A stretch of 64,000 bases of DNA from Maribacter sp. PR1 (GTDB lineage Bacteria > Bacteroidota > Bacteroidia > Flavobacteriales > Flavobacteriaceae): assembly GCF_028464145.1 (NCBI RefSeq), contig NZ_JAQPCG010000001.1, forward strand, positions 620,001 to 684,000, in the 5' to 3' direction. This document shows, piece after piece, positions 5,567-17,559 of the stretch (positions are counted from its first letter, which is position 1; the number at the start of each line of letters is the position of its first letter). Position numbers and translations under genes: made by a program. The notes beneath the pieces are model-generated. The model was not told the DNA's origin. It made no database searches and saw nothing but the letters and a program-made list of their open reading frames with translations.

Positions 5567-5741
5567 TATTAAATCTATATTACGTTAGGCATTCTAATTT
5601 AGGTTCCTGCAAACTTTTTCTCCTTCCGTTCCAAAACAGCAAGTTCAATAATTTCAGACTATCCCATTTACAAATAGTTGTATGCAATTTTGGGAATCAA
5701 AAAATGTATATTTAAGGCATATTCTTTCTAAAAAAGCAATC

Positions 5742-7097
5742 ATGAAGCACACTATTTGTCGTGAGAAGTATTTCACTGAAATTAAAGGAACACTGAGGTT
5801 TCTAATTTTACTGTTCGGAGCATTGACAACTACTGCGATGTATTCACAACAAAACAAGGACTCACTTGATATCATTGAACTTCTTGAAAAAGAGGGACTC
5901 ACGTGGCGTTTAGGTGACAAGGAAAGACATTCCGAATGTTGGAAAGCTACCCCAAATGGTATCATGGTCATGTCCACAGCGGATGGCAATGTAATAAACA
6001 TCCCCGTTGAGATGGTAATAGACCCTTCTCCCAATATGATCGGGAATGGTGGATTCGCATTTCACTTCAACCATAAAATGAATATAGGAGAAAATAAGGC
6101 GTGGGTAGGTCATGATGAAGTTTCCGTTGATACCTTGGGAAAGGAAACACTTTCTTATGAAGTGCGGTTCTTGAATAAATCAAATGATCGATGGAAGCTT
6201 GTTGGCCAATCCATGCATTTTTATAAGCATCCACCCGAAAACAAAATAGACACCACCAGTTACATACAAACGGTGGACATAGAAACCGGACGAATAGAAA
6301 CCGTGTTACGTATTAACGAACATTTTGAGGCACCCAACTGGCATCCGGACGGTTATTTAATCGTAAACAGTAAGGGCAAACTATACACCTTAGATCTTAA
6401 AACAAAAAAATTAAACTTACTTGATACCGGTTTTGCAAACCAGTGCAACAATGATCATGGTATTTCGCCAGATAACAAGTGGTTGGCCATAAGCCACAAT
6501 GATAAAGACAATCCTTCCTCCAAATCTTATAAATCGGCCATCTTCATCATGCCGATAAATGGCGGGGAACCAAAGCGTATAACGGCTAACGTACCCTCAT
6601 ATTGGCATGGTTGGTCCCCTAACGGGAAAACTTTGGCTTATTGTGCTGAACGTAACGGTAATTATGATGTATATACCATTGGGATCAATGGCGGAAAGGA
6701 AAAAAGACTCACCACTGCGGAGGGGTTGGACGACGGTCCTGAATATTCCCCGGATGGAAAATATATCTACTTTAATTCCTACAGATCGGGACACATGCAA
6801 ATTTGGAGGATGACGGCAAATGGAAAAAAACCTGAACAGCTAACTTTTGACGAGAATTCCAATTGGTTCCCGCACCCTTCCCCGGATGGTAAATGGATTG
6901 CCTACATAGCCTATACCTCCGACCAAAAACAAAGTCACCTCTTCGGAAAACAGGTCAAAATCAGACTTATGGACGTGGAAACCAAGGTGATTCGTGATAT
7001 CACTCCCGTTTTCTTTGGGGGCCAAGGAACCATCAACGTACCCTCTTGGAGTCCGGATAGTAAAAAGTTGGCTTTTGTGAGCTATTCCGTGAATTAA
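5742..7097 (+). CDS. Secreted TolB-like beta-propeller (WD40-like PD40 repeat) protein
   Basis: About 451 residues from the ATG at 5742, chosen because the upstream in-frame ATG at 5682 would put 20 extra residues before the signal peptide (hydrophobic core [11 protein letters not shown], ending YSQQ). The N-terminal 150 residues are a separate domain with no obvious family. The second half holds several PD40 repeats recognised by [33 protein letters not shown] and [11 protein letters not shown], the strand-turn pattern of TolB-type propellers. Such proteins usually bind other proteins or glycans in the periplasm or on the surface. A hairpin with flanking A and T tracts follows the stop codon. 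Function is unassigned. Confidence 0.78.
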
Positions 7098-7115: not shown

Positions 7116-7141
7116 AAAAACCTCAACATGTTGTGGTTTTT
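7116..7141. terminator. Hairpin terminator, bidirectional; related to the tRNA-Leu terminator
   Basis: AAAAACC-T-CAAC-AT-GTTG-T-GGTTTTT forms a stem interrupted by a T-T mismatch, with A and T tracts on either side, so it can act in both directions. It shares CCTCAACAT with the perfect hairpin at 16342-16369, which follows the tRNA-Leu gene. Its spacing to the adjacent tRNA fragment is also alike (5 versus 3 bases). This suggests that it is the original terminator of the tRNA locus. Confidence 0.65.
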
Positions 7142-7146
7142 AGATA

Positions 7147-7165
7147 TACTCGAGGTGGGAATCGA
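7147..7165 (-). repeat. Left direct repeat: 19-bp copy of the tRNA-Leu 3' end (candidate att site)
   Basis: TACTCGAGGTGGGAATCGA is identical to 16373-16391, which is the discriminator base, acceptor 3' strand, T-stem 3' strand and part of the T-loop of tRNA-Leu(CAA). No other part of a tRNA is present here. A partial tRNA 3' end in the same orientation as the intact tRNA is the classic signature left by tyrosine-recombinase integration at a tRNA gene. The pair bounds the 9.2-kb signalling block. Confidence 0.7.
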
Positions 7166-7302
7166 TTTGGTATTCTATTAACGAAGTTTCCCAATTAATT
7201 ATGCATTAGGACGATGTTTTTAAAATAGAGTTTTAAACTTTTAACGCGGACATCGATAAAAAATTCACCATGAAGGAAGCGCAACAGATTTAATAAACCC
7301 TA

Positions 7303-7334
7303 TTTGAACCGGAGATACACAGATAGTAACTTTG
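7303..7334 (+). promoter_or_regulatory. Orphan Bacteroidetes-type promoter reading into the antisense of a response regulator gene
   Basis: TTTG (7303-7306), a 20-base spacer and TAACTTTG (7327-7334) match the Bacteroidetes consensus TTTG-N17-23-TAnnTTTG. No rightward gene starts within 600 bases; the next annotated one is the large kinase at 7987, and the leftward response regulator at 7406-7834 lies between. It may drive an antisense or small RNA, or be a relic of a lost gene. Confidence 0.4.
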
Positions 7335-7405
7335 CAGCATCAAATCGCTTAATAATAAGTAATATAAATTGTTAAAACTTAAGTAGGAAAGTATTCACCT
7401 TTGGT

Positions 7406-7834
7406 TTAAACATTTTTCCTTTTGGATACTATTCGGAGTTTTTCCCAGTAGAGCAACATGTTCTTTATATATTCGGAAAAGTTCTCAATATCGTAGGGCT
7501 TGGTAACAAACGCATTAGCGTGATTTTGATACGCATAGTTGATATCCTTCAAATCACTGGATGTTGTTAAAATTACAACAGGTACATCAGCGTAGCTTGA
7601 ATCAGCCTTTAAAAATTTCAATATCTGTCTACCATCAGGGCTCGGTATATTAAGGTCCAACAAAATTAGGTCGAATAAACCAATACTATCCCTTTGCGAA
7701 ATATCCTTAATCTTTTTAAGGGCCATTTCACCATTGGTTGCCGTTTCTAAATGATACGCAAGATCTAATTCGTCGATAGCTTCCTGTATAATAAAGAGAT
7801 CAGCTAGATTGTCCTCTACCAAAAGTATATTCAT
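7406..7834 (-). CDS. Single-domain response regulator (Rcp1-like receiver)
   Basis: 142 residues, all of it one CheY-like receiver with no output domain. The acidic pair is in LVEDN (residues 5-9), the phospho-acceptor is D60 in LILLDLNIP, the switch Thr is in ILTTSS, and the conserved Lys is in FVTKPYD. The sequence style (VEDNLADLFIIQEA, TTSSDLKDI) is that of receivers paired with phytochrome-like or multi-PAS kinases. It is divergent from the giant kinase at 7987, so the two probably form a signalling pair. Between the two starts is a near-perfect palindrome (7840-7854) that may control both. It sits at the left end of the tRNA-flanked block. Confidence 0.93.
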   Translation of the reverse strand: MNILLVEDNLADLFIIQEAIDELDLAYHLETATNGEMALKKIKDISQRDSIGLFDLILLDLNIPSPDGRQILKFLKADSSYADVPVVILTTSSDLKDINYAYQNHANAFVTKPYDIENFSEYIKNMLLYWEKLRIVSKRKNV

Positions 7835-7839
7835 AGTTT

Positions 7840-7854
7840 ATTACATAATGTAAT
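7840..7854. promoter_or_regulatory. Candidate operator palindrome between the divergent receiver and kinase genes
   Basis: ATTACAT-A-ATGTAAT is a 15-bp palindrome around one central base, starting 6 bases upstream of the start codon of the leftward receiver gene. No regulator is known. The region is very AT-rich, so a chance palindrome is possible. Confidence 0.35.
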
Positions 7855-7986
7855 AAAAATACTACAAAATAATCGAAGTCAGTAATCTAAATCTGTCAGT
7901 TTATTGAGTTTTTCTTTGTTAAAAATAGAACATTCCTTACCTTCTATTTGAGTATACGGTATTTCCCAAAATATTTAATCCAAATT

Positions 7987-10900
7987 ATGGAACAATTACA
8001 GTTGACCAATATCTTTCTAGAACAAAGTAAAGTTCCATTTTGGATTATTGACCTTGAGTTTCAATTGCTTTATTCCAATAAAGCATACCAAGGCCTCACG
8101 AAAGTAGTGCCTGGGTTGACAAATAAACTGAACGAGTCGATATTTATCGAAGACGTTGGCAAAGAAGATGTTGAGAAGTGGGCAGCCTATTATAAAAGGG
8201 CTTTTAAAGGAGCATCTTTTGAAGCAGAAAATCACTATTATAATTCTGAGTTAAAAGAAACACAATATGGCCAAACAACTTTTGAACCTTTAAAAAACGA
8301 AGAGAACAAGATTTATGCGGTTGCTTGTCAATGGAAAAATGTATCGCACATTGTAAACCATAAAAGTGAAGCCAAACAATTAATGGATTCTTCTTTGGAT
8401 GTATTCTGCACTTTTAATGAGCAGGGTGAGTTTCTTTATGTCAGTGAAGCAGCAAAAGAGCACTGGGGCTATTCCCCTGCGGAATTACTGGGTACACCTT
8501 ACAGGTCGTTGGTAATTGAGGAGGATTTATCCGCTACAGATTCAATAGATACGACTATAAGGAACGGACAAGAAATTAAATCATTCTCAAATAGGTATCG
8601 AAAAAAAGATGGTGGAATTGCTTATAATATCTGGTCATCCAAATGGGACGAGCGTACAAAACGCTTTTACTCCGTGGCAAGGGACGGCAAAGAAAAACTT
8701 GAACAAGAAGAAAAGTTACTCAAAAGTGAAAAACGTTTTAAAGCGCTAGTTACAGGGGCATTCGACTTGGTGGCAGTGATAGATATTAAAGGACATTATT
8801 TGTACATGAGCCCTTCAATAACTGCCATTGCCGGCATTCCTCCTGAAGTATTTATTGGTAAAAATGCATTTGACTTTGTTCACCCAGATGATAAAAAACA
8901 GACAGCAGCCGAACTGGAAAAATCAATAAAAGAGGATAGGGTAATAATGAAACCCTATCGTGCTAAAAACCATAAAAATGAATGGAGATGGGTTGAATCT
9001 ATACTAACAAATATGTTAGACAACTCAGCGATTAATGGCATTGTTATTAATTCAAGGGATATCACAGAAAAAATTGAACAAGAAGAGAAATTACTTCAAA
9101 GTGAAAGACGTTTTAAAGCACTAATTCAGGAGGGTTCCGATTTAATTGGAATTCTGGATACAGATGGCACCTATAGCTATGTGAGTCCAACAAGTAACGC
9201 TGTTCTTGGAATATCACCTGAAGAATTTATCGGCAGAAATGCCTTTGAATTTATTCATCCTAATGATGAGCCGAGAGTCTTAGCTGGTCTCCAAAAAGTA
9301 CCTACAGAAAACAAAGTCACGCTGAAACCTTATCGTTTTTTAAACCACAAAAAAGAATGGCGTTGGGTAGAAACCGTGCTGACGAATATGTTAGACAACC
9401 CATCTGTGAAGGGTATCGTTGCAAATTCGAGGGATGTTACAGATAGAATTGAGCAAGAAGAACGAATTGTTCAAACTGAGAAAAGATTCGAGACACTGAT
9501 TCAAAATAGTATGGACTGTATTGTTATTCTTTCACCAGAGGGTGAAACTAACTTTGTATCTGAGGCTATTAAAAATATTCTAGGTTACACCCCATCTGAA
9601 ATAATGAAAATGGATATCTGGGAGTTGATTCATCCCGAAGATATTAAAGGCTCCCAGGCCGCATTGGCAAAATCCTTTAAGCAACCAGGAGTTTCTATAG
9701 AGGGTTTTACAGCAAGATTAAAGCACAAAGATGGTTCCTGGAGGTGGGTTGAACCTGTTGTGACTAATTTGGTTCATGATCCTTCGATAAGAGGCATTGT
9801 AGATGTTTTTAGAGACGTAACAAAGCGAAAAACAGAAGAACTTGAAAAAGACCTCATCAACCGAATTAGCGATATTTTCAACCAAAACACCCACAATGAG
9901 TTAACCACATGCCTATCATCTGTTTGCGAACAAGTAGTTCATTTTGATAATTTTAGTTTTGCTGAAATATGGTTGCCAACTTTTGACAGTAAAAAGCTTA
10001 ACCGCGCAGCAAGTTACACCGGTAGTAAGGCAGGCAAGCAGTTTTTTAAGGAATCCAAAAAATTAAACGCTGTAGGCATAAAAGAAGGCTTGTCAGATCA
10101 AGTTTTGAAAAATAGAGAAACAGTTATTTGGGAATCCGTTGATGAAGAATGGCATTTATTCAAGAGAAAAGCTGCAGCAGAAAAGGCAGGGATTAAATCG
10201 CTTATTGCTATACCATTAATGCACAATGACAATCTATTAGGTGGCCTTTTGATAGGGACAGAAAAAGCCAAATCTGCCCTTTCTATGAATTTAGATTTGT
10301 TTCTAAAATTAGAGTCAACCATTGGGTCTGAGCTAAGCAGAAAGAAAACAGAAGTTGAGCTATCTCAAATTTTCAATTTCACACCTGATATGATTTGTGT
10401 GGCAGGTTTTGATGGTTATATTAAGCAAATCAATCCGGCGGGGTTAGCGTTATTGGGGTATTCATTGGAGGAGATCCGCTCTCGTCCAATAAAGTCATTT
10501 GTACATGAGGAAGATAAATCGCTCACAGAAGAAAATCAAAACAAACTATACAATGGCAAAGACCTAGACAGTTTTGAAAATCGATATATTACCAAAGCGG
10601 GCAAAGTCATTTGGTTGAGCTGGACTGCAACTTCTTTACCAGAGCAAGGTATTATTTATGCGGTTGCCAAAGACATCACTGAAGAAAAAAACCTTAGAGA
10701 ATTGAACCGGCATGTTGGGCTGCTGGCCAAAATTGGAAGCTGGGAGGTAGATCTGGTTAAACAAACTGTATTTTGGTCAGATGAGGTCCATAAAATTTAC
10801 GAAACAGACCCAAATTCATTCGTTCCCACTGTGGACAATGCAATTGATTTTTACAGAGAAGATTTTCGCCAATTTGCGCTGTCAAGTTTTGAAAAATGCA

Positions 10901-13900
10901 TAGAAACTGGAGAGTCCTATGAAATTGAAGCGGTTATTGTCACTTGTAGTAATAAGGAGCGATGGGTGCGCACTACAGCAAAAGCCGAATTTATTGATGG
11001 TGCGTGTGTAAGAGTCTATGGTAGTTTTCAAGATATAAACGAGCGCAAGCAAGCAGAAAATAGGCTACAATCTCTGGCTGACAATATACCTGGAATAATT
11101 TACAATTATGCTATTTATCCAGATGGAACAGATGCATTATTGCATGTATCTGGAGATGTTGAAAAAATTTGGGGTTTTACGGCTGATCAAGTTATAGAAA
11201 ACTCAAAACTAATATGGGACCAAATCAAATTGGGAGGCGATTTTGAAGAAGTTCAAGCAAGTGTTCAAAAGTCTATCCAAACAAAATCAAAGTGGATAAG
11301 TCGTTCAAAATATGTATCTCCAACAGGTGAAGTTCGTAACCTTTTAGGTTTTGGCAGTCCTAGTTTTTTAGCAGATGGCACCATTCTATTTAACTCTATT
11401 ATTCTTGACAATACGCAACAGGCTAAAAACGAAGAGTTATTAACATCAACAGGAAAACTAGCCAAAATTGGAGGTTGGGAGGTTGATCTTATTAATAATT
11501 CTGTATACTGGACAAAAGAGACCCACTTAATTCATAAGACAGACCCTAACTTTTTTATACCAACCTTTGAGGGCGCAATTAACTTTTATAGAGAAGACTT
11601 TCATGATCTGGTAAGGTCTAATGTTGAAGAATGTATAAGAACTGGAGATCCCTATAAAATAGAAGCTGTTTTAATTACTGCAAATAAAAAGGAATTGTGG
11701 GTTAGAAGTAATGCTAGTGCAGAATTCATTAACGGTGTATGTACGCGTATTTATGGTAGTATTCAAGATATTCATGAGCAAAAGACTGCAGCTCTAGAAT
11801 TAGAAAGAAGTATAAAAGCTTTGGGAGATTATAAATATTCACTGGACCAATCTGCCATTATCGCTTTCACAGACCAGAAAGGGGTGATAACTTCTGTCAA
11901 CGATAATTTTTGTGAAATATCGGGCTACAGCAAAAAAGAGCTTCTTGGAAAAACTCATCGTATTATTAACGCTAGCTACCATCCTGCAAGCTTTTTTAAA
12001 GAGTTATGGAAAACAATAGCCTCAGGAAAAGTATGGCGTGGAGAAGTTAAAAATAAAGCAAAGAATGGCTCCTATTACTGGGTGGATACGACCATAACAC
12101 CTTTTTTAAATGATAAAAACAAACCCGTACAATATTTGGCCATTCGTTTTGATATCACAGAACGAAAAAAAGCAGAAGATGAAAAAGCTAGATTTCAAGA
12201 AACGCTAGAAAACAGCTTGAACGAAATTTACATGTTCGACTCCAAAACCTTTAAATTCGGTTATGTCAACAAAGGAGCGATGCTCAACCTTGGTTATACA
12301 AAGCAAGAATTACATGATCTAACTCCATTAGATATAAAACCTGAGTACACAGAAGAGTCCTTTAACCAATTAGTTTCTCCTTTATTAAGTCATGAAAAAG
12401 AGAAGGTAATATTTTTTACCGAACATAAGCGTAAAGATGGTAGCCTTTATCCTGTAGAGGTCCACTTGAAATTAGTTGAGGAAGCCGACTATAGTAACTT
12501 CATTGCTATAATTTTAGATATTACCGAAAGAAAAAAAGCCGAAGAAGATTTAATTGCTTCCTCAGAAAGATTACGTCTTGCAACCAAAACTGGAAATATT
12601 GGCATATGGGATTGGGATGTGGTAAATGACCACCTTATTTGGGACGATACCATGTACGATATTTTTGATGTTGAAGAAAACGAATTTCAAGGTGCATTTG
12701 AAGCTTGGGAAGCCAAAATTCATCCTGATGATGTTGATGAAGCTAATGAGGAATTACAAAATGCATTAAAAGGCCTTTCCAAATTTAACGCAGAATTTCG
12801 AGTGGTTAGGCATGATAAGTCAATTAGATATGTTGCAGGAGAAGCTATCGTAATAAGAGATGAGGTTTCAGGAAACCCTATTAGAATGATAGGTACTAAC
12901 ATAGATATTACCGAAAGAAAAAAAGCTGAAAAAGAAAATAGGTTCAAAGCTAATTTATTAAGCATGGTTAGGCAGGGGGCAATAGCAACCAACCTAGAGG
13001 GGGAAGTTAACTACTGGAACAAAGGCGCCGAGATTATGTATGGTTGGAAAGCTGAAGAAGCTTTGGGGAAGAATATCATGCAACTTACCACTCTGGAAAA
13101 TAATGAAGAAGAGGCCCGGAAAATAATGGAAATGCTGAAGAAGGGGGAGTCCTGGTCGGGCAATTTTGAAGTACAGAAAAAGGATGGCACAAATTTTACA
13201 GTCAAGATTACCAATTCTCCAATCTATGATGGGAAGAAAAATTTGAGGGGTATTATTGGTATTTCAACAGACATTACACAAGAAATTAAAAACAGGGAGT
13301 TACTAAAGCAGTATACTAAAGAACTTGAGCGCTCTAATGAAGAGTTGGAACAATTTGCATTTGTCACCTCCCACGATTTACAGGAACCATTGCGAATGAT
13401 TTCTGGCTTTATGGATCAATTAAAAAGAAAGTACGAAGACCAACTGGACGATAAAGCGCTTCAATATATTTACTTCGCCACCGATGGTGCTAAACGCATG
13501 AAAAACATCATTTTAGATTTACTTGACTATTCTAGGGCCAGTAAACCCTCTGATGATCTTGAAGAAGTAAACTTAAATGAAGTCATAACCAGCTACGAAC
13601 AATTAAGAAGAAAAGTTATAGCAGAAAGTTCAACGATCATAAAATCGGAAGAATTACCATCTATAGTAACGTACAATGCCGTAGTGACTCAAATCTTTCA
13701 TGGATTGCTGGATAATTCCATTAAATATGCCAGAGAAGGAATTGCACCTGTTATAGAAATTAAATCTCAGGAAAAGGAAAATGAATGGAAGTTTTCAGTA
13801 ACCGATAATGGAATAGGGATAGATGCTCAATTTTATGATAAAATCTTTGTTATTTTCCAAAGATTACATAATCGAGAAAGTTATGCCGGAACAGGAATTG

Positions 13901-14040
13901 GTCTTGCTATCGTTAAAAGGTGTGTTGAATTTTTAGATGGAAAAATATGGCTGACATCAACAGTTGGTGAGGGCACAACGTTTTTCTTTACCATAGCAAA
14001 AAATAGAAAACATAAAATACAGAAAAATGAAATTAGCTAA
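7987..14040 (+). CDS. Giant soluble multi-PAS/GAF sensor histidine kinase
   Basis: About 2,017 residues from the ATG at 7987; a TTG at 7948 would add 13. No membrane segment is evident, so it is probably cytoplasmic. The order is PAS1 (about 1-120), PAS2 (130-235), PAS3 (246), PAS4 (371), PAS5 (497), GAF (622-790), PAS6 (791), PAS7 (908), PAS8 (1025), PAS9 (1152), PAS10 (1281), PAS11 (1402), PAS12 (1525), PAS13 (1652), then HisKA and HATPase. The H-box SHDLQEPL carries H1796. The N-box is LLDNS (about 1907), the G1 box DNGIGID (1940) and the G2 box GTGIGLA (1968). Many PAS units end in DITERKKAE-type linkers. PAS3/PAS4 and PAS7/PAS9 are close internal copies. It overlaps the next receiver gene by 14 bases, indicating co-translation. 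Ligands are unknown. Confidence 0.93.
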   Translation: MEQLQLTNIFLEQSKVPFWIIDLEFQLLYSNKAYQGLTKVVPGLTNKLNESIFIEDVGKEDVEKWAAYYKRAFKGASFEAENHYYNSELKETQYGQTTFEPLKNEENKIYAVACQWKNVSHIVNHKSEAKQLMDSSLDVFCTFNEQGEFLYVSEAAKEHWGYSPAELLGTPYRSLVIEEDLSATDSIDTTIRNGQEIKSFSNRYRKKDGGIAYNIWSSKWDERTKRFYSVARDGKEKLEQEEKLLKSEKRFKALVTGAFDLVAVIDIKGHYLYMSPSITAIAGIPPEVFIGKNAFDFVHPDDKKQTAAELEKSIKEDRVIMKPYRAKNHKNEWRWVESILTNMLDNSAINGIVINSRDITEKIEQEEKLLQSERRFKALIQEGSDLIGILDTDGTYSYVSPTSNAVLGISPEEFIGRNAFEFIHPNDEPRVLAGLQKVPTENKVTLKPYRFLNHKKEWRWVETVLTNMLDNPSVKGIVANSRDVTDRIEQEERIVQTEKRFETLIQNSMDCIVILSPEGETNFVSEAIKNILGYTPSEIMKMDIWELIHPEDIKGSQAALAKSFKQPGVSIEGFTARLKHKDGSWRWVEPVVTNLVHDPSIRGIVDVFRDVTKRKTEELEKDLINRISDIFNQNTHNELTTCLSSVCEQVVHFDNFSFAEIWLPTFDSKKLNRAASYTGSKAGKQFFKESKKLNAVGIKEGLSDQVLKNRETVIWESVDEEWHLFKRKAAAEKAGIKSLIAIPLMHNDNLLGGLLIGTEKAKSALSMNLDLFLKLESTIGSELSRKKTEVELSQIFNFTPDMICVAGFDGYIKQINPAGLALLGYSLEEIRSRPIKSFVHEEDKSLTEENQNKLYNGKDLDSFENRYITKAGKVIWLSWTATSLPEQGIIYAVAKDITEEKNLRELNRHVGLLAKIGSWEVDLVKQTVFWSDEVHKIYETDPNSFVPTVDNAIDFYREDFRQFALSSFEKCIETGESYEIEAVIVTCSNKERWVRTTAKAEFIDGACVRVYGSFQDINERKQAENRLQSLADNIPGIIYNYAIYPDGTDALLHVSGDVEKIWGFTADQVIENSKLIWDQIKLGGDFEEVQASVQKSIQTKSKWISRSKYVSPTGEVRNLLGFGSPSFLADGTILFNSIILDNTQQAKNEELLTSTGKLAKIGGWEVDLINNSVYWTKETHLIHKTDPNFFIPTFEGAINFYREDFHDLVRSNVEECIRTGDPYKIEAVLITANKKELWVRSNASAEFINGVCTRIYGSIQDIHEQKTAALELERSIKALGDYKYSLDQSAIIAFTDQKGVITSVNDNFCEISGYSKKELLGKTHRIINASYHPASFFKELWKTIASGKVWRGEVKNKAKNGSYYWVDTTITPFLNDKNKPVQYLAIRFDITERKKAEDEKARFQETLENSLNEIYMFDSKTFKFGYVNKGAMLNLGYTKQELHDLTPLDIKPEYTEESFNQLVSPLLSHEKEKVIFFTEHKRKDGSLYPVEVHLKLVEEADYSNFIAIILDITERKKAEEDLIASSERLRLATKTGNIGIWDWDVVNDHLIWDDTMYDIFDVEENEFQGAFEAWEAKIHPDDVDEANEELQNALKGLSKFNAEFRVVRHDKSIRYVAGEAIVIRDEVSGNPIRMIGTNIDITERKKAEKENRFKANLLSMVRQGAIATNLEGEVNYWNKGAEIMYGWKAEEALGKNIMQLTTLENNEEEARKIMEMLKKGESWSGNFEVQKKDGTNFTVKITNSPIYDGKKNLRGIIGISTDITQEIKNRELLKQYTKELERSNEELEQFAFVTSHDLQEPLRMISGFMDQLKRKYEDQLDDKALQYIYFATDGAKRMKNIILDLLDYSRASKPSDDLEEVNLNEVITSYEQLRRKVIAESSTIIKSEELPSIVTYNAVVTQIFHGLLDNSIKYAREGIAPVIEIKSQEKENEWKFSVTDNGIGIDAQFYDKIFVIFQRLHNRESYAGTGIGLAIVKRCVEFLDGKIWLTSTVGEGTTFFFTIAKNRKHKIQKNEIS

Positions 14041-14452
14041 TATTCTTTTGGTGGAGGATAATGAAGGAGATATTCTCCTTACCCTGGAAGCTTTTGAAGA
14101 AAGCCAAGTAAAAACAGAAATCAATGTTGCAAGAAATGGACAAGAAGCTCTTGATTATCTATACAAAAAAGGGGATTACACAGAAGTAAAAAAACCTGAT
14201 TTGATTCTATTGGATATAAACATCCCAGTATTTAATGGGCATGAAGTATTAAAAAAAATAAAAGGCGACCCAATACTCAAAAAAATTCCCGTAATAATGT
14301 TGACCACCTCCTCAAATGAAAAGGATATTGAAAAAGCTTATGAAAACCACACCAACAGTTATGTAAGAAAGCCACTTAATATGGAGGATTTTTTAAAGGC
14401 AATTCTAAAAATTGAAGAATTTTGGTTGCAGATAACTACCCTAACCAAATAG
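14027..14452 (+). CDS. Single-domain response regulator (Rcp1-like receiver), kinase partner
   Basis: 141 residues, one receiver domain. The acidic cluster is in LVEDNEGD, the phospho-acceptor is D63 in LILLDINIP, the switch Thr is in MLTTSS, and the Lys is in VRKPLN. Its start lies inside the last codons of the giant kinase (14-base overlap), a strong sign that the kinase is its phosphodonor. It is of the same subfamily as the receiver at 7406-7834. With no output domain, it must act through protein interaction or as a step in a phosphorelay to the receiver-PAS-DHp protein 4 bases downstream. Confidence 0.94.
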   Translation: MKLANILLVEDNEGDILLTLEAFEESQVKTEINVARNGQEALDYLYKKGDYTEVKKPDLILLDINIPVFNGHEVLKKIKGDPILKKIPVIMLTTSSNEKDIEKAYENHTNSYVRKPLNMEDFLKAILKIEEFWLQITTLTK

Positions 14453-14456
14453 GAAA

Positions 14457-15476
14457 ATGCATAACGTTTTTAAACACAATGAACCAATCACCGTGTTAGT
14501 GGTTGAAGATAATGATGGTGACTTTATACTTGTTGAAGATTATTTGCATGAAAAATTCAAGAATATAGCGCTTAAACGCAGCAAGGATTTTAAGGAAACA
14601 GTTTTAGCTATTAAACAAAATAAATCAACCCTTTCTGCTATTCTTTTAGATACACATTTACATGATGGGAACGGTCTAGATCTTATAAAAAAAGTTCTTG
14701 ACGCTGCAAACGATATTCCCATACTAATCTTAACAGGTTATTCAGATGTGTCTATTGCTCAATTAAGCCTTCAATTGGGTGTGTATGATTTTTTGGTGAA
14801 AGATGAGTTAAATCCAAATTTGCTACATAAAAGCATAGATTTTGCGATAAACAGGAGACAATTCATTTCGCAAATTGAAAGTGAACGTTCAAACTTTGAA
14901 AATCTTTTCAATTTCAGTCCCCAACCTATGTGGCTTTTAAATGCAGATGATTATACAATTTTAAACGCAAATTTATCGGCAATTGAAAAGTATGGATATA
15001 CTTTAAAGGAGTATAAGAAAAAGTCCTATTTCGAATTACATCCAAAAGAGGAGTCCGAAAACATATCGAAACGCCTCTCAAATCATCATTTAGAAGTAGT
15101 AAACAATAATTTTACCCATTGTTTAAAGAGTGGTGAACAAATAAAAGTTGATTTTTATTGCAAAAAAGTTAAAGGAGAAACAGACGGTATGGAGAGAATC
15201 ATCGTTCAATCCAATGATGTAACTGAAAAATTGAATCATATAAAGACCATAGAAATCCAAAATGAAAAACTAATGAATATAGCTTGGACACAATCTCATG
15301 AAGTACGGGCACCACTAGCAAGAATTTTAGGTATTATCGAGGTGATTGAGAATATAGATTTAGAAATGGAAGAATTACCATTTTGGCTGAAAAAACTAAA
15401 AATATCTTCAAAAGAATTGGATGAAATAATACATACCATTGTAGAGCAAACCCAAACATTAAATTTTAAGGATTAA
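14457..15476 (+). CDS. Receiver-PAS-DHp protein lacking a kinase catalytic domain
   Basis: 339 residues. The receiver (about 10-130) has D65 in AILLDTHLHDG and a Lys in FLVKDE. A PAS domain occupies about 143-262, ending in DVTEK. A dimerisation/phosphoacceptor segment with an H-box follows (WTQSHEVRAPLARILG, H281). The protein ends about 58 residues later without N, G1 or G2 boxes, so it has no ATPase. The 125 bases that follow show no remnant of one. It may be a histidine phosphotransfer or scaffold element fed by the upstream kinase and receiver, or a kinase that lost its ATPase. It is third in the kinase operon (4-base gap). Confidence 0.85.
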   Translation: MHNVFKHNEPITVLVVEDNDGDFILVEDYLHEKFKNIALKRSKDFKETVLAIKQNKSTLSAILLDTHLHDGNGLDLIKKVLDAANDIPILILTGYSDVSIAQLSLQLGVYDFLVKDELNPNLLHKSIDFAINRRQFISQIESERSNFENLFNFSPQPMWLLNADDYTILNANLSAIEKYGYTLKEYKKKSYFELHPKEESENISKRLSNHHLEVVNNNFTHCLKSGEQIKVDFYCKKVKGETDGMERIIVQSNDVTEKLNHIKTIEIQNEKLMNIAWTQSHEVRAPLARILGIIEVIENIDLEMEELPFWLKKLKISSKELDEIIHTIVEQTQTLNFKD

Positions 15477-15601
15477 AAGTACCGCTTACATATCTTTTAA
15501 AGATTAGGTATGATTGCCATGGAAATATTTGGTAGAATTATTATTTTTCTATTTTAGATTTGGGTAAACTCATCTTGTTTCTTCTTAAATGGAATAAACG
15601 T

Positions 15602-16000
15602 TCAAAGAGCTCTTTTAATAGGGTTTTGCAGCAGTTCCTCTATTTTTTCTATTTTTAATGGTTTAGTTACAAAATCCATAATATATTGTGGAAAGGTTTT
15701 GGCTATTGCCTTATCCTTTTTGTTTATAGAAGAAGTTACAATAACAACATCTATATTGGTGGTAAATTTTTCCAAAACCATACATTCTAGGAACTGGAAA
15801 CCATTAATTTCTGGCATATTAATGTCCAAAAGAACTAGAATTGGGTTCTCACCTTTTTCATGTATTCGTAAATGATTCAAAGCTTTTACTGGATTAGTAA
15901 ATGAGACGACCATATCCTCCAATCCCAACTTTTTAAGCATCATAAGATGCATTAGATTTACCAATTCCACGTCATCAATCAAGTAGATTTTAGAATACAT
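15602..16000 (-). CDS. Single-domain response regulator
   Basis: 132 residues, one receiver. The acidic pair is in LIDDVE, the phospho-acceptor is D59 in LVLLDINMPEING, the switch position is in VTSS, and the Lys is in FVTKPLK. It differs in style from the two Rcp1-like receivers nearby and is closer to receivers found beside Bacteroidetes hybrid kinases. It is encoded convergently to the kinase operon, with 125 bases between stops, at the right end of the tRNA-flanked block. There is no output domain. Partner unknown; the neighbouring kinase or the DHp-only protein are the obvious candidates. Confidence 0.92.
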   Translation of the reverse strand: MYSKIYLIDDVELVNLMHLMMLKKLGLEDMVVSFTNPVKALNHLRIHEKGENPILVLLDINMPEINGFQFLECMVLEKFTTNIDVVIVTSSINKKDKAIAKTFPQYIMDFVTKPLKIEKIEELLQNPIKRAL

Positions 16001-16341
16001 AATTCCTATCTTTAACTTCCCTTTTATTTAAAGTTAATACTATTGAATTGCATTGCCAGTTTTTGTTGTGAATCTTTCATTTAAGTATATGAAATGCCTA
16101 GAATCCGATGTCATAATTTAATCATAGCCATGTTCTAAATATTGATGCTGCCCTTACTCAATCATGAAAGTGTTTAGCGGAATTCTTTCCAATTAAGTTT
16201 GTCAAAAAAATTGAAAAGCTTAAATTTCTTTTCTACGTAATGAAGGGTTTTATGTGCCAAAAGCCTCCAAATTATGAATATTAATGAGCGTGATCTACGA
16301 ACAAAAGTTAAATGTGCACATGTTGTACCTGAGCAACAAAA
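16001..16341. other. Intergenic region, no gene seen
   Basis: About 340 AT-rich bases between the leftward receiver and the tRNA-Leu terminator. I find no convincing open frame, no integrase fragment and no repeat on either strand. Its left part presumably holds the promoter of the receiver gene. Confidence 0.6.
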
Positions 16342-16369
16342 AAGGCCTCAACATTTCTGTTGAGGCCTT
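16342..16369 (-). terminator. Terminator of tRNA-Leu
   Basis: AAGGCCTCAAC (16342-16352) and GTTGAGGCCTT (16359-16369) form a perfect 11-bp stem with a 6-base loop. On the minus strand it follows the tRNA 3' end by 3 bases and is itself followed by a run of T. A diverged copy of this arrangement is at 7116-7165. Confidence 0.85.
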
Positions 16370-16372
16370 AAG

Positions 16373-16391
16373 TACTCGAGGTGGGAATCGA
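16373..16391 (-). repeat. Right direct repeat within the tRNA-Leu 3' end (candidate att site)
   Basis: Identical over 19 bases to 7147-7165. Here it is part of the intact tRNA, as expected for an element that inserted in the 3' end and restored the gene. Confidence 0.7.
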
Positions 16392-16453
16392 ACCCACACT
16401 CCAAAGGAACTGGATTTTGAATCCAGCGCGTCTACCAGTTCCGCCACTCGAGC
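16373..16453 (-). tRNA. tRNA-Leu (anticodon CAA)
   Basis: Read on the minus strand, it has acceptor GCTCGAG pairing with CTCGAGT plus discriminator A. The D-arm contains AACTGGTAGA, and the anticodon stem CTGGA/TCCAG holds the loop TTCAAAA, giving anticodon CAA. The variable arm is short (TTCC-TTT-GGA), and the T-arm is GTGGG-TTCGATT-CCCAC. The 3' CCA is not encoded. A G-U pair closes the acceptor. The last 19 bases are duplicated at 7147-7165. Confidence 0.96.
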
Positions 16454-16617: not shown

Positions 16618-17559
16618 ATGCCATATAGAGTTCCAGAACCTAAATTTTTTGCCTGTACCCAAAGTACGATTTTAGGTAAGAAAATTGCAAAAGCATACGG
16701 TGTGGATTTGGGCAATGTCATATTTTCCCGTTACAGTGATGGGGAATTTCAACCTTCTTTTGAAGAGTCTATAAGAGGTGCAAGAATATTTATTATTGGT
16801 TCTACGCACCCCGGTCCGGAAAACCTGATGGAAATGTTGTTGATGATTGATGGTGCCAAAAGAGCCTCTGCCCGTCATATTACTGCGGTTATGCCTTATT
16901 TTGGTTGGGCAAGACAAGACAGAAAAGACAAACCTAGGGTTCCCATTGCCGCCAAATTGGTTGCTAAAATGTTGGAAACCGCAGGTGCAACGAGAATCAT
17001 CACCATGGATTTACATGCGGACCAGATTCAAGGCTTTTTTGAAAAACCTGTCGACCACTTGTTTGCCTCAACCCTGTTTCTTCCCTATTTAAGAAATCTT
17101 GGATTGGACAATTTAACCATTGCCTCACCGGATATGGGAGGGTCAAAACGAGCATATGCCTATTCGAAAGCACTGGATAGTGATGTGGTAGTCTGCTATA
17201 AACAGCGAGCTAAAGCCAATATTATTTCCCACATGGAGCTCATTGGTGATGTTCAAGGAAAAAATGTAGTGTTGGTAGATGATATGGTAGATACCGCCGG
17301 TACCTTGACAAAGGCTGCGGACCTAATGATGGAAAGAGGGGCAATCAGTGTAAGGGCCATAGCGACCCATGGATTGTTATCGGGGGATGCTTATGAAAAA
17401 ATAGAAGATTCTCAATTAACGGAATTAATCATTACAGATTCCATTCCTATAGAGATAAAAAGCGATAAAGTACGAGTACTTAGCTGTGCAGATCTGTTTG
17501 CGGATGTAATGCATAAAGTACACAATAACAACTCCATATCCTCCAAATTTTTAATGTAG
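16618..17559 (+). CDS. prs: Ribose-phosphate pyrophosphokinase (PRPP synthetase)
   Basis: 313 residues, the normal class I length. It makes PRPP from ribose 5-phosphate and ATP for nucleotide, His and Trp synthesis in the cytoplasm. Visible signatures are the flexible-loop region YFGWARQDRKDKPRVPI, the metal-binding DLHADQIQGFF and the PRPP-binding VVLVDDMVDTAGT. The N-terminal part FSRYSDGEF also fits. It is followed 60 bases later by rplY and then pth, a known Flavobacteria gene order. The start is the ATG at 16618, about 70 bases after a good promoter. Confidence 0.97.
   Translation: MPYRVPEPKFFACTQSTILGKKIAKAYGVDLGNVIFSRYSDGEFQPSFEESIRGARIFIIGSTHPGPENLMEMLLMIDGAKRASARHITAVMPYFGWARQDRKDKPRVPIAAKLVAKMLETAGATRIITMDLHADQIQGFFEKPVDHLFASTLFLPYLRNLGLDNLTIASPDMGGSKRAYAYSKALDSDVVVCYKQRAKANIISHMELIGDVQGKNVVLVDDMVDTAGTLTKAADLMMERGAISVRAIATHGLLSGDAYEKIEDSQLTELIITDSIPIEIKSDKVRVLSCADLFADVMHKVHNNNSISSKFLM

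Follow-up and report, generated by a model that had tools for sequence, protein, structure and literature searches.

The stretch of Maribacter sp. PR1 DNA analysed here, hereafter the window, comprises 64,000 nucleotides (assembly GCF_028464145.1, contig NZ_JAQPCG010000001.1, positions 620,001-684,000 of the forward strand), and contains at positions 7147-16391 a block of two-component signalling genes beside tRNA-Leu(CAA). This block is probably a tRNA island that was inserted at tRNA-Leu(CAA) and has lost its integrase, with a cargo acquired by horizontal transfer. According to the proposed course of events, a tyrosine integrase, an enzyme type suggested by the neighbouring elements at this site, would have inserted the island into the 3′ end of the tRNA gene. 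Because the island would have supplied both a new tRNA end and a new terminator, the tRNA would have stayed whole, while the old end and terminator were displaced by 9.2 kb. A later deletion may then have removed the integrase end beside the displaced fragment, leaving the cargo between two attachment remnants: a multi-PAS histidine kinase, three single-domain receivers, and a putative relay protein with the architecture REC-PAS-DHp (Table 1).

The block is delimited by a 19-bp direct repeat, TACTCGAGGTGGGAATCGA, which is exact at 7147-7165 and 16373-16391 and lies on the forward strand in both cases. An initial annotation of this DNA had described the repeat in these terms and had placed its right copy within the 3′ end of tRNA-Leu(CAA), where the mapped gene now locates it. 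The sequence has exactly two exact copies in the PR1 assembly (label G000; 4.73 Mb, 23 contigs) and is therefore not a motif scattered over many places in the genome; no further copy with up to three mismatches is found in the window, where 0.01 would be expected by chance. Since no third copy was found, recombination between tRNA copies, one of three routes of entry offered in the initial annotation, is unlikely. The decay of an integrated element, another of the three, gives the best fit. It could also be argued that the left 19-mer is a chance match or the remnant of a tRNA duplication and that the block is native, as tRNA genes may have short pieces of tRNA in their vicinity, for example those of tRNA-Arg in G191, a genome of another genus. 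Yet the low chance expectation, the foreign composition and the patchy distribution of the block all speak against this explanation, which is already contradicted by the empty sites described below and is extremely improbable.

The site was compared among 36 genomes of the genus (the PR1 genome and 35 relatives), and the cargo was also searched for in a family set of 397 genomes that includes PR1. The anchor gene prs was detected in 35 of the 36 congeneric genomes, strongly in 34; no prs locus could be used from G022 or G027. tRNA-Leu(CAA) lies beside prs in 33 of the relatives' 34 prs loci (G023 contributes two), the remaining locus being incomplete. Alignment with relatives, the check proposed in the initial annotation, revealed sites without the block: directly after the PD40 gene, G013 and one of the two prs contigs of G023 (the second) have a terminator and tRNA-Leu(CAA), and in G018 (99% complete) the next gene outward, orf4623, is 41 bp from the tRNA. 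From these empty sites it follows that the block is an insertion in the lineage of the window and that the left 19-mer and its hairpin occupy the former position of the tRNA end. At the level of sequence comparison, the empty sites thus demonstrate the insertion itself.

The two hairpins at the ends of the block are unequal. The tRNA-side hairpin has a folding energy of -20.4 kcal/mol (z -6.0) and the left one of -5.7 kcal/mol (z -1.4), a stability equalled by 23 of 200 shuffles; a strong terminator by the tRNA and a weak displaced one would be expected if just the tRNA-side one still serves a tRNA. The earlier proposal that the left repeat copy and its terminator are the original flank of the tRNA is therefore sustained by their position, shared with relatives, whereas the close sequence similarity between the hairpins on which it leaned is not supported. 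It is worth mentioning that the D-loop and the variable arm of the window tRNA are those of the version present in G021 and G033, and that a prs-rplY tree groups the PR1 genome with six species having a different common version of tRNA-Leu(CAA). This is suggestive of an island that may have replaced most of the tRNA, the 19-bp copy being a truncated scar.

The block is compositionally foreign. Its low G+C, which the initial annotation had counted by hand on single lines, holds over its whole length (34.8%, against at least 37.4% in each of the 9.2-kb segments sampled to the right, with a mean of 39.1%, and 40.8% in the left flank), and codon use deviates as well. The codon-use departure of the block is 0.033, compared with a maximum of 0.0204 in 500 draws of other gene runs of the window; these draws were taken from 49 open reading frames (ORFs) and overlap, the distinct runs being far fewer than 500. 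The G+C content at third codon positions is 0.26-0.31 in four of the five block genes and 0.381 (standard deviation 0.035) elsewhere in the window, and is ordinary (0.378) in the fifth gene, 7406-7834.

The tRNA-Leu(CAA) site is an integration hotspot, a landing place used repeatedly by the sister species. Across the 27 genomes measured, PR1 included, the distance between the orf4623 homologue and the tRNA ranges from 41 bp to 108,217 bp, and at least 12 displaced copies of the tRNA end are present in 11 genomes, counting the window. The latter figure is a lower bound because many sites were incompletely read: reading was partial in G002, G003, G006, G009, G017, G023, and G034, the loci of G010, G025, and G028 stop before, at or just beyond the tRNA, and that of G029 stops soon after. 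A minus-strand TACTCGAGG match in locus L114 was excluded from the count as due to chance. The length shared with the tRNA is 19 bp in the window, 10 in G007, 13 in G035, 18 in G002, 25 in G011, 79 in G016, and 17 in G031, G017 and one of the two G019 copies (16 in the other), while in G034 and G006 the displaced fragment extends through the anticodon stem. The two G019 copies represent tandem insertions. For eight of the 12 displaced copies (G035, G031, G034, G006, G011, G017, one G019 copy and G002) an integrase frame starts 83-218 bp from the start of the copy; the second G019 copy has its integrase at the tRNA end instead. Three of these integrases were analyzed with Pfam, and the phage-integrase and SAM-like domains were recognised in all of them, the arm-binding domain in two. 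Five of the 36 genomes contain members of one integrase family (67-99% identity with the G019 query), always by a displaced copy of this tRNA end, and five more genomes have matches of just 28-33%, located elsewhere.

The elements lodged at this tRNA are diverse. A 14.5-kb insert in G035 (L059) carries an integrase, a helix-turn-helix protein, a DUF3987 protein, and a D12 methylase, as well as an AAA protein for which PADLOC gives restriction enzymes as matches. The integrase elements of G034 and G006 (L061:14780-15194 with L122:13078, and L044:14740-15144 with L124:3905; loci oriented with prs forward) have their crossover point within the anticodon stem-loop of the prs-side tRNA-Leu(CAA), which they split, and about 15-27 bases inside they bring a whole tRNA-Leu(CAA) whose sequence is different. 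Among the matches listed in a literature search, judged by title and the beginning of the abstract, none describes tRNA-splitting elements of this type.

The ends of these elements offer a further term of comparison. A direct-repeat pair, TTGTACC TATG TTGTACC, is located at a distance of 59-83 bp from the end of the tRNA in G002 (with one mismatch), G003, G006, G023, and G034. In G006 and G034 it recurs where the integrase frame begins, 155 bp inward from the start of the displaced fragment, a placement that would suit putative integrase arm sites. The motif search gave 18 matches, of which eight were used; the other ten have 2-4 mismatches, and comprise two that lie 60-62 bp outside displaced copies (G017 and G019), which may be the ends of neighbouring elements, and eight deemed background. 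Both ends of the window block carry the 19-bp core, and the arm-like motif appears on the tRNA side alone, in degenerate form, within a terminus whose 50-bp stretch beside the tRNA end shares 94% identity with its G003 counterpart. As nothing comparable was found at the left end, we infer a deletion of the integrase end.

Bounded elements without an integrase were found in three cases, the window, G007 and G016, the last two with a profile built from ten integrases found at these sites, which other recombinase types would therefore escape. The G007 islet (L035:5140-14733) measures 9.6 kb, lies at the same tRNA between 10-bp repeats, and encodes a PorP/SprF protein and a SprB-repeat protein of 2506 aa that has a type IX secretion signal. 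Its existence, at a similar size and at the same site, lends some credit to the idea that the window block never had an integrase and consists of cargo between two attachment sites, having been inserted, and being movable, by integrases acting in trans (a route also proposed in the initial annotation), especially as sister species do have integrases associated with this tRNA. The PR1 genome, on the contrary, has no relative of the G019-query family at E 1e-20. A more distant integrase in it, a tyrosine integrase of 426 aa about 31 kb to the left of the block (G000:C1:594726-595907), is approximately 30% identical to that of G035 and has no tRNA within the 14 kb read around it. Moreover, the left end of the G007 islet looks, by eye, like that of a G019 element with an integrase at its other end, which points to loss, and the G002 integrase beside the displaced fragment (L116:8959-9864) is visibly in decay, midway, with several stops and in pieces. 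An origin without any integrase is consequently unlikely, and its loss from a once complete island is the preferred reading.

Table 1. Features of the window in and around the block (positions in the window)
Feature	Position	Strand	Basis
PD40 beta-propeller gene, left flank	5682..7097	+	Pfam; terminator and tRNA-Leu directly after it in empty-site relatives
Weak hairpin, displaced; judging from its position, the original tRNA-Leu terminator	7116..7141	-	Position as the terminator between PD40 gene and tRNA at empty sites
19-bp piece of the tRNA 3′ end, displaced; remnant of the distal attachment site	7147..7165	+	Exact match; arrangement recurs in 10 more genomes
Single-domain response regulator, 142 aa	7406..7834	-	Response_reg 9e-18; 83% orthologue in G007
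Histidine kinase, 2030 aa, about nine PAS, GAF, HisKA, HATPase	7948..14040	+	Pfam; orthologues in G007 and G191
Single-domain response regulator, 141 aa	14027..14452	+	Response_reg 9e-21; 93% in G007, 89% in G191
REC-PAS-DHp protein, 339 aa	14457..15476	+	Pfam REC and PAS; HisKA below cut-off
Single-domain response regulator, 132 aa	15602..16000	-	Response_reg 3e-13
Degenerate direct-repeat motif, possible integrase arm site	16312..16329	+	4/18 mismatches against TTGTACCTATGTTGTACC; 61 bp from core
Strong terminator immediately inside the island, presumably now serving the tRNA	16342..16369	-	12 pairs; near-identical one in G003
tRNA-Leu(CAA), integration target	16372..16453	-	ARAGORN; Rfam tRNA model; right repeat copy at its 3′ end (16373-16391)
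prs (ribose-phosphate pyrophosphokinase), right anchor	16618..17559	+	Pfam; prs search in genus

Pfam, run on five ORFs between the repeats, recovered only two-component genes, as had been noticed from the translations alone. The REC-PAS-DHp protein lacks an ATPase domain and combines receiver and PAS domains with a helical hairpin bearing an H-box histidine (Pfam, AlphaFold). The histidine, H281, is invariant in seven of seven sequences; the AlphaFold model has a mean pLDDT of 80 and a pTM of 0.45, which leaves the domain arrangement uncertain, and most of the matches listed for it in the PDB belong to receivers, PAS domains, or sensor kinases. The receiver at 15602-16000 has no orthologue in the 20 kb around the G007 cluster, and a homologue of it comes after the REC-PAS-DHp gene in seven of ten other loci. 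The kinase aligns with its G007 and G191 orthologues piecewise and with unequal identity, and the PAS modules look as if they had been exchanged. No DNA-binding or enzymatic output domain was recognised in the five genes with Pfam and NCBIfam, the NCBIfam matches to enzymes (e.g., cyclases) being below cut-off and over PAS regions; the signal would therefore have to reach host proteins by contact or phosphotransfer. In this sense, a relay may be envisaged from the kinase to a receiver, from there to the DHp histidine and on to another receiver, with output through contact with host proteins. Pfam recognised no phage gene among the five, in a search that did not extend to PHROGs or packaging signals, and no relative of the REC-PAS-DHp protein or of the integrase was found in viral contigs. 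A role in anti-phage defence was considered and rejected, as PADLOC returned only weak matches to candidate models for the five genes (24 bits or less).

Far from being common to all relatives, the cluster is rare in the genus: the REC-PAS-DHp protein, taken as a marker, has a close orthologue in one of the 35 congeners, G007 (80% identity), and there at a different site. Four of the five cluster genes (L078 7638-15314) start in that genome 374 bp past the 3′ end of tRNA-Lys(TTT). No copy of the tRNA-Lys end was found beyond the cluster in the 20-kb locus, and the DNA beyond it has no match in the tRNA-Lys regions of nine relatives. Matches to the marker at E 1e-40 occur in 15 of the 397 family genomes, PR1 included, the next best being that of G191 (69%). 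The kinase ORF of G191 starts 838 bp past the 3′ end of tRNA-Arg(TCT), and between the two lies a 19-bp repeat that includes the last 12 bases of the tRNA. The G191 kinase frame is broken by a stop codon at L165:10219, ahead of the ATPase region, while the window and G007 copies are intact; at L165:3600-4100, tRNA-Arg fragments flank a short interrupted ORF that we take to resemble a GIY-YIG nuclease. All three copies with at least 69% identity therefore adjoin a tRNA, each a different one (Leu, Lys, Arg), a pattern noticed post hoc with no formal control. The side differs: in G007 and G191 the intact tRNA adjoins the kinase end of the cluster, in the window the 15602 end. Nine other loci, with 35-45% identity, are not at tRNAs, and two of them have a tRNA-Ser almost 5 kb from the closest cluster gene. 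Among named genomes, a contig scan with the single protein detected no relatives; with a three-sequence alignment 63 loci were obtained, the top three 48-52% identical, and the six of these loci that were scanned for tRNAs showed none.

Silent sites favour a transfer of the cargo between genera, as judged against two core controls. At fourfold-degenerate sites the kinases of the window and G191 agree in 54% of cases versus 30% by chance (excess 0.34, n=449), and the receiver at 14027 gives an excess of 0.32 (n=41), whereas the core genes compared between the same genomes are saturated (orf125, excess 0.06, n=115; a gene presumed to be gyrase-A-like, 0.01, n=156). The kinases of G007 and G191 have an excess of 0.22, and the four cluster genes shared by the window and G007 of 0.45, 0.48, 0.50, and 0.17. 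A bolder extension of these data would be that the phosphorelay cluster is a travelling, output-less multi-PAS unit, carried between genera and repeatedly lodged at tRNAs by means of the integrases of other elements; at present this seems doubtful.

Another alternative is that an older island marked the site and that the signalling genes were swapped in later by homologous or illegitimate recombination, so that the repeat would not date the cargo. Tandem insertions do occur at the hotspot, as the two displaced copies of G019 attest, and in G007 the cluster stands by tRNA-Lys lacking a far-side copy of that tRNA's end within the stretch read. The cluster nevertheless almost fills the interval in the window, where the parts outside it amount to just 240 bp at the left end and 371 bp at the right, and a late replacement is quite unlikely. 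An island that arrived with its cargo and later lost its integrase is still preferred.

Several observations weigh against this preference. With regard to the site, the assemblies of G013 and G023 are 81 and 82% complete, with contamination of 5 and 4%; G023 has two prs copies, one of them with a large insert; and the left terminator is not recognisably that of the empty sites in its sequence. As for the lost integrase, the left inner end of the block matches no element in the 35 congeners apart from short matches (best outside the window 30 bp, E 3e-4 for one genome). In addition, no integrase relic was found inside the block, where tblastn with five integrases gave no match better than E 0.018; this agrees with the initial annotation, which had seen no integrase, and the loss is thus presumed. 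Regarding the transfer between genera, the REC-PAS-DHp gene (14457) has a smaller excess against G191 (0.14, n=71), just two core genes served as controls in that comparison, and six core genes compared between the window and G007 reach 0.10-0.42, some of them near the values of the cluster genes (0.17-0.50).

Large sensory kinases are commonly viewed as native families that expand slowly; here, a large sensory kinase acts, together with a relay set, as island cargo. In kind, the finding is mostly ordinary, a tRNA island without integrase, and what deserves attention is the cargo and its association with tRNAs, its cross-genus history, and the series and variety of elements at one tRNA. A single genus offers at this locus an empty site, several types of integrase element, a decaying integrase, and integrase-free islets, so that the order of decay and a possible mobilisation in trans can be tested there.

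Comparable systems have been described in other bacteria. Among the best-ranked open-licence PMC matches, judged by title and the opening of the abstract, none reports this locus, nor a tRNA island of these bacteria that has a cluster with a sensory kinase as its cargo. The ssrA-specific islands of Dehalococcoides, as presented in the sections cited, similarly use one RNA gene as a hotspot, with direct repeats delimiting tandem islands within 100 kb, and 16 of 31 have an integration module; they differ in relying on serine recombinases at tmRNA, while the elements at the window site have tyrosine integrases at tRNA-Leu and the window cargo is sensory (PMC3146451). Riemerella anatipestifer, assigned to the Flavobacteriaceae (PMC9745183), has 10K and 50K islands that likewise lie downstream of a tRNA with direct repeats of 53 and 19 bp; in the excerpts cited, unlike in the window block, an integrase is placed beside the tRNA, excision of the 10K island, at tRNA-Arg, was demonstrated, and the cargo is different (PMC6764341, PMC9745183). 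The tDNA islands of the Islander collection share the ends of the window block, a regenerated tRNA and a displaced fragment, yet Islander, as outlined in the cited part of its description, filters on an integrase gene and would therefore discard this island (PMC4383910). Having no integrase of its own, the block does not belong with the autonomous islands that Islander collects. A closer parallel is the cis-mobilizable element (CIME), defined in the cited passage as an element that has lost its integration and transfer genes and retains attL and attR (PMC5704250). The window block lies at the 3′ end of a tRNA between attachment remnants and carries only cargo, five two-component genes, at a site also used by integrase-bearing and tandem elements. 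The difference is that no parental integrative and conjugative element (ICE) or integrative and mobilizable element (IME) has been identified for it, and the block is not filed as a CIME; its best reading is that of an element functionally like one.

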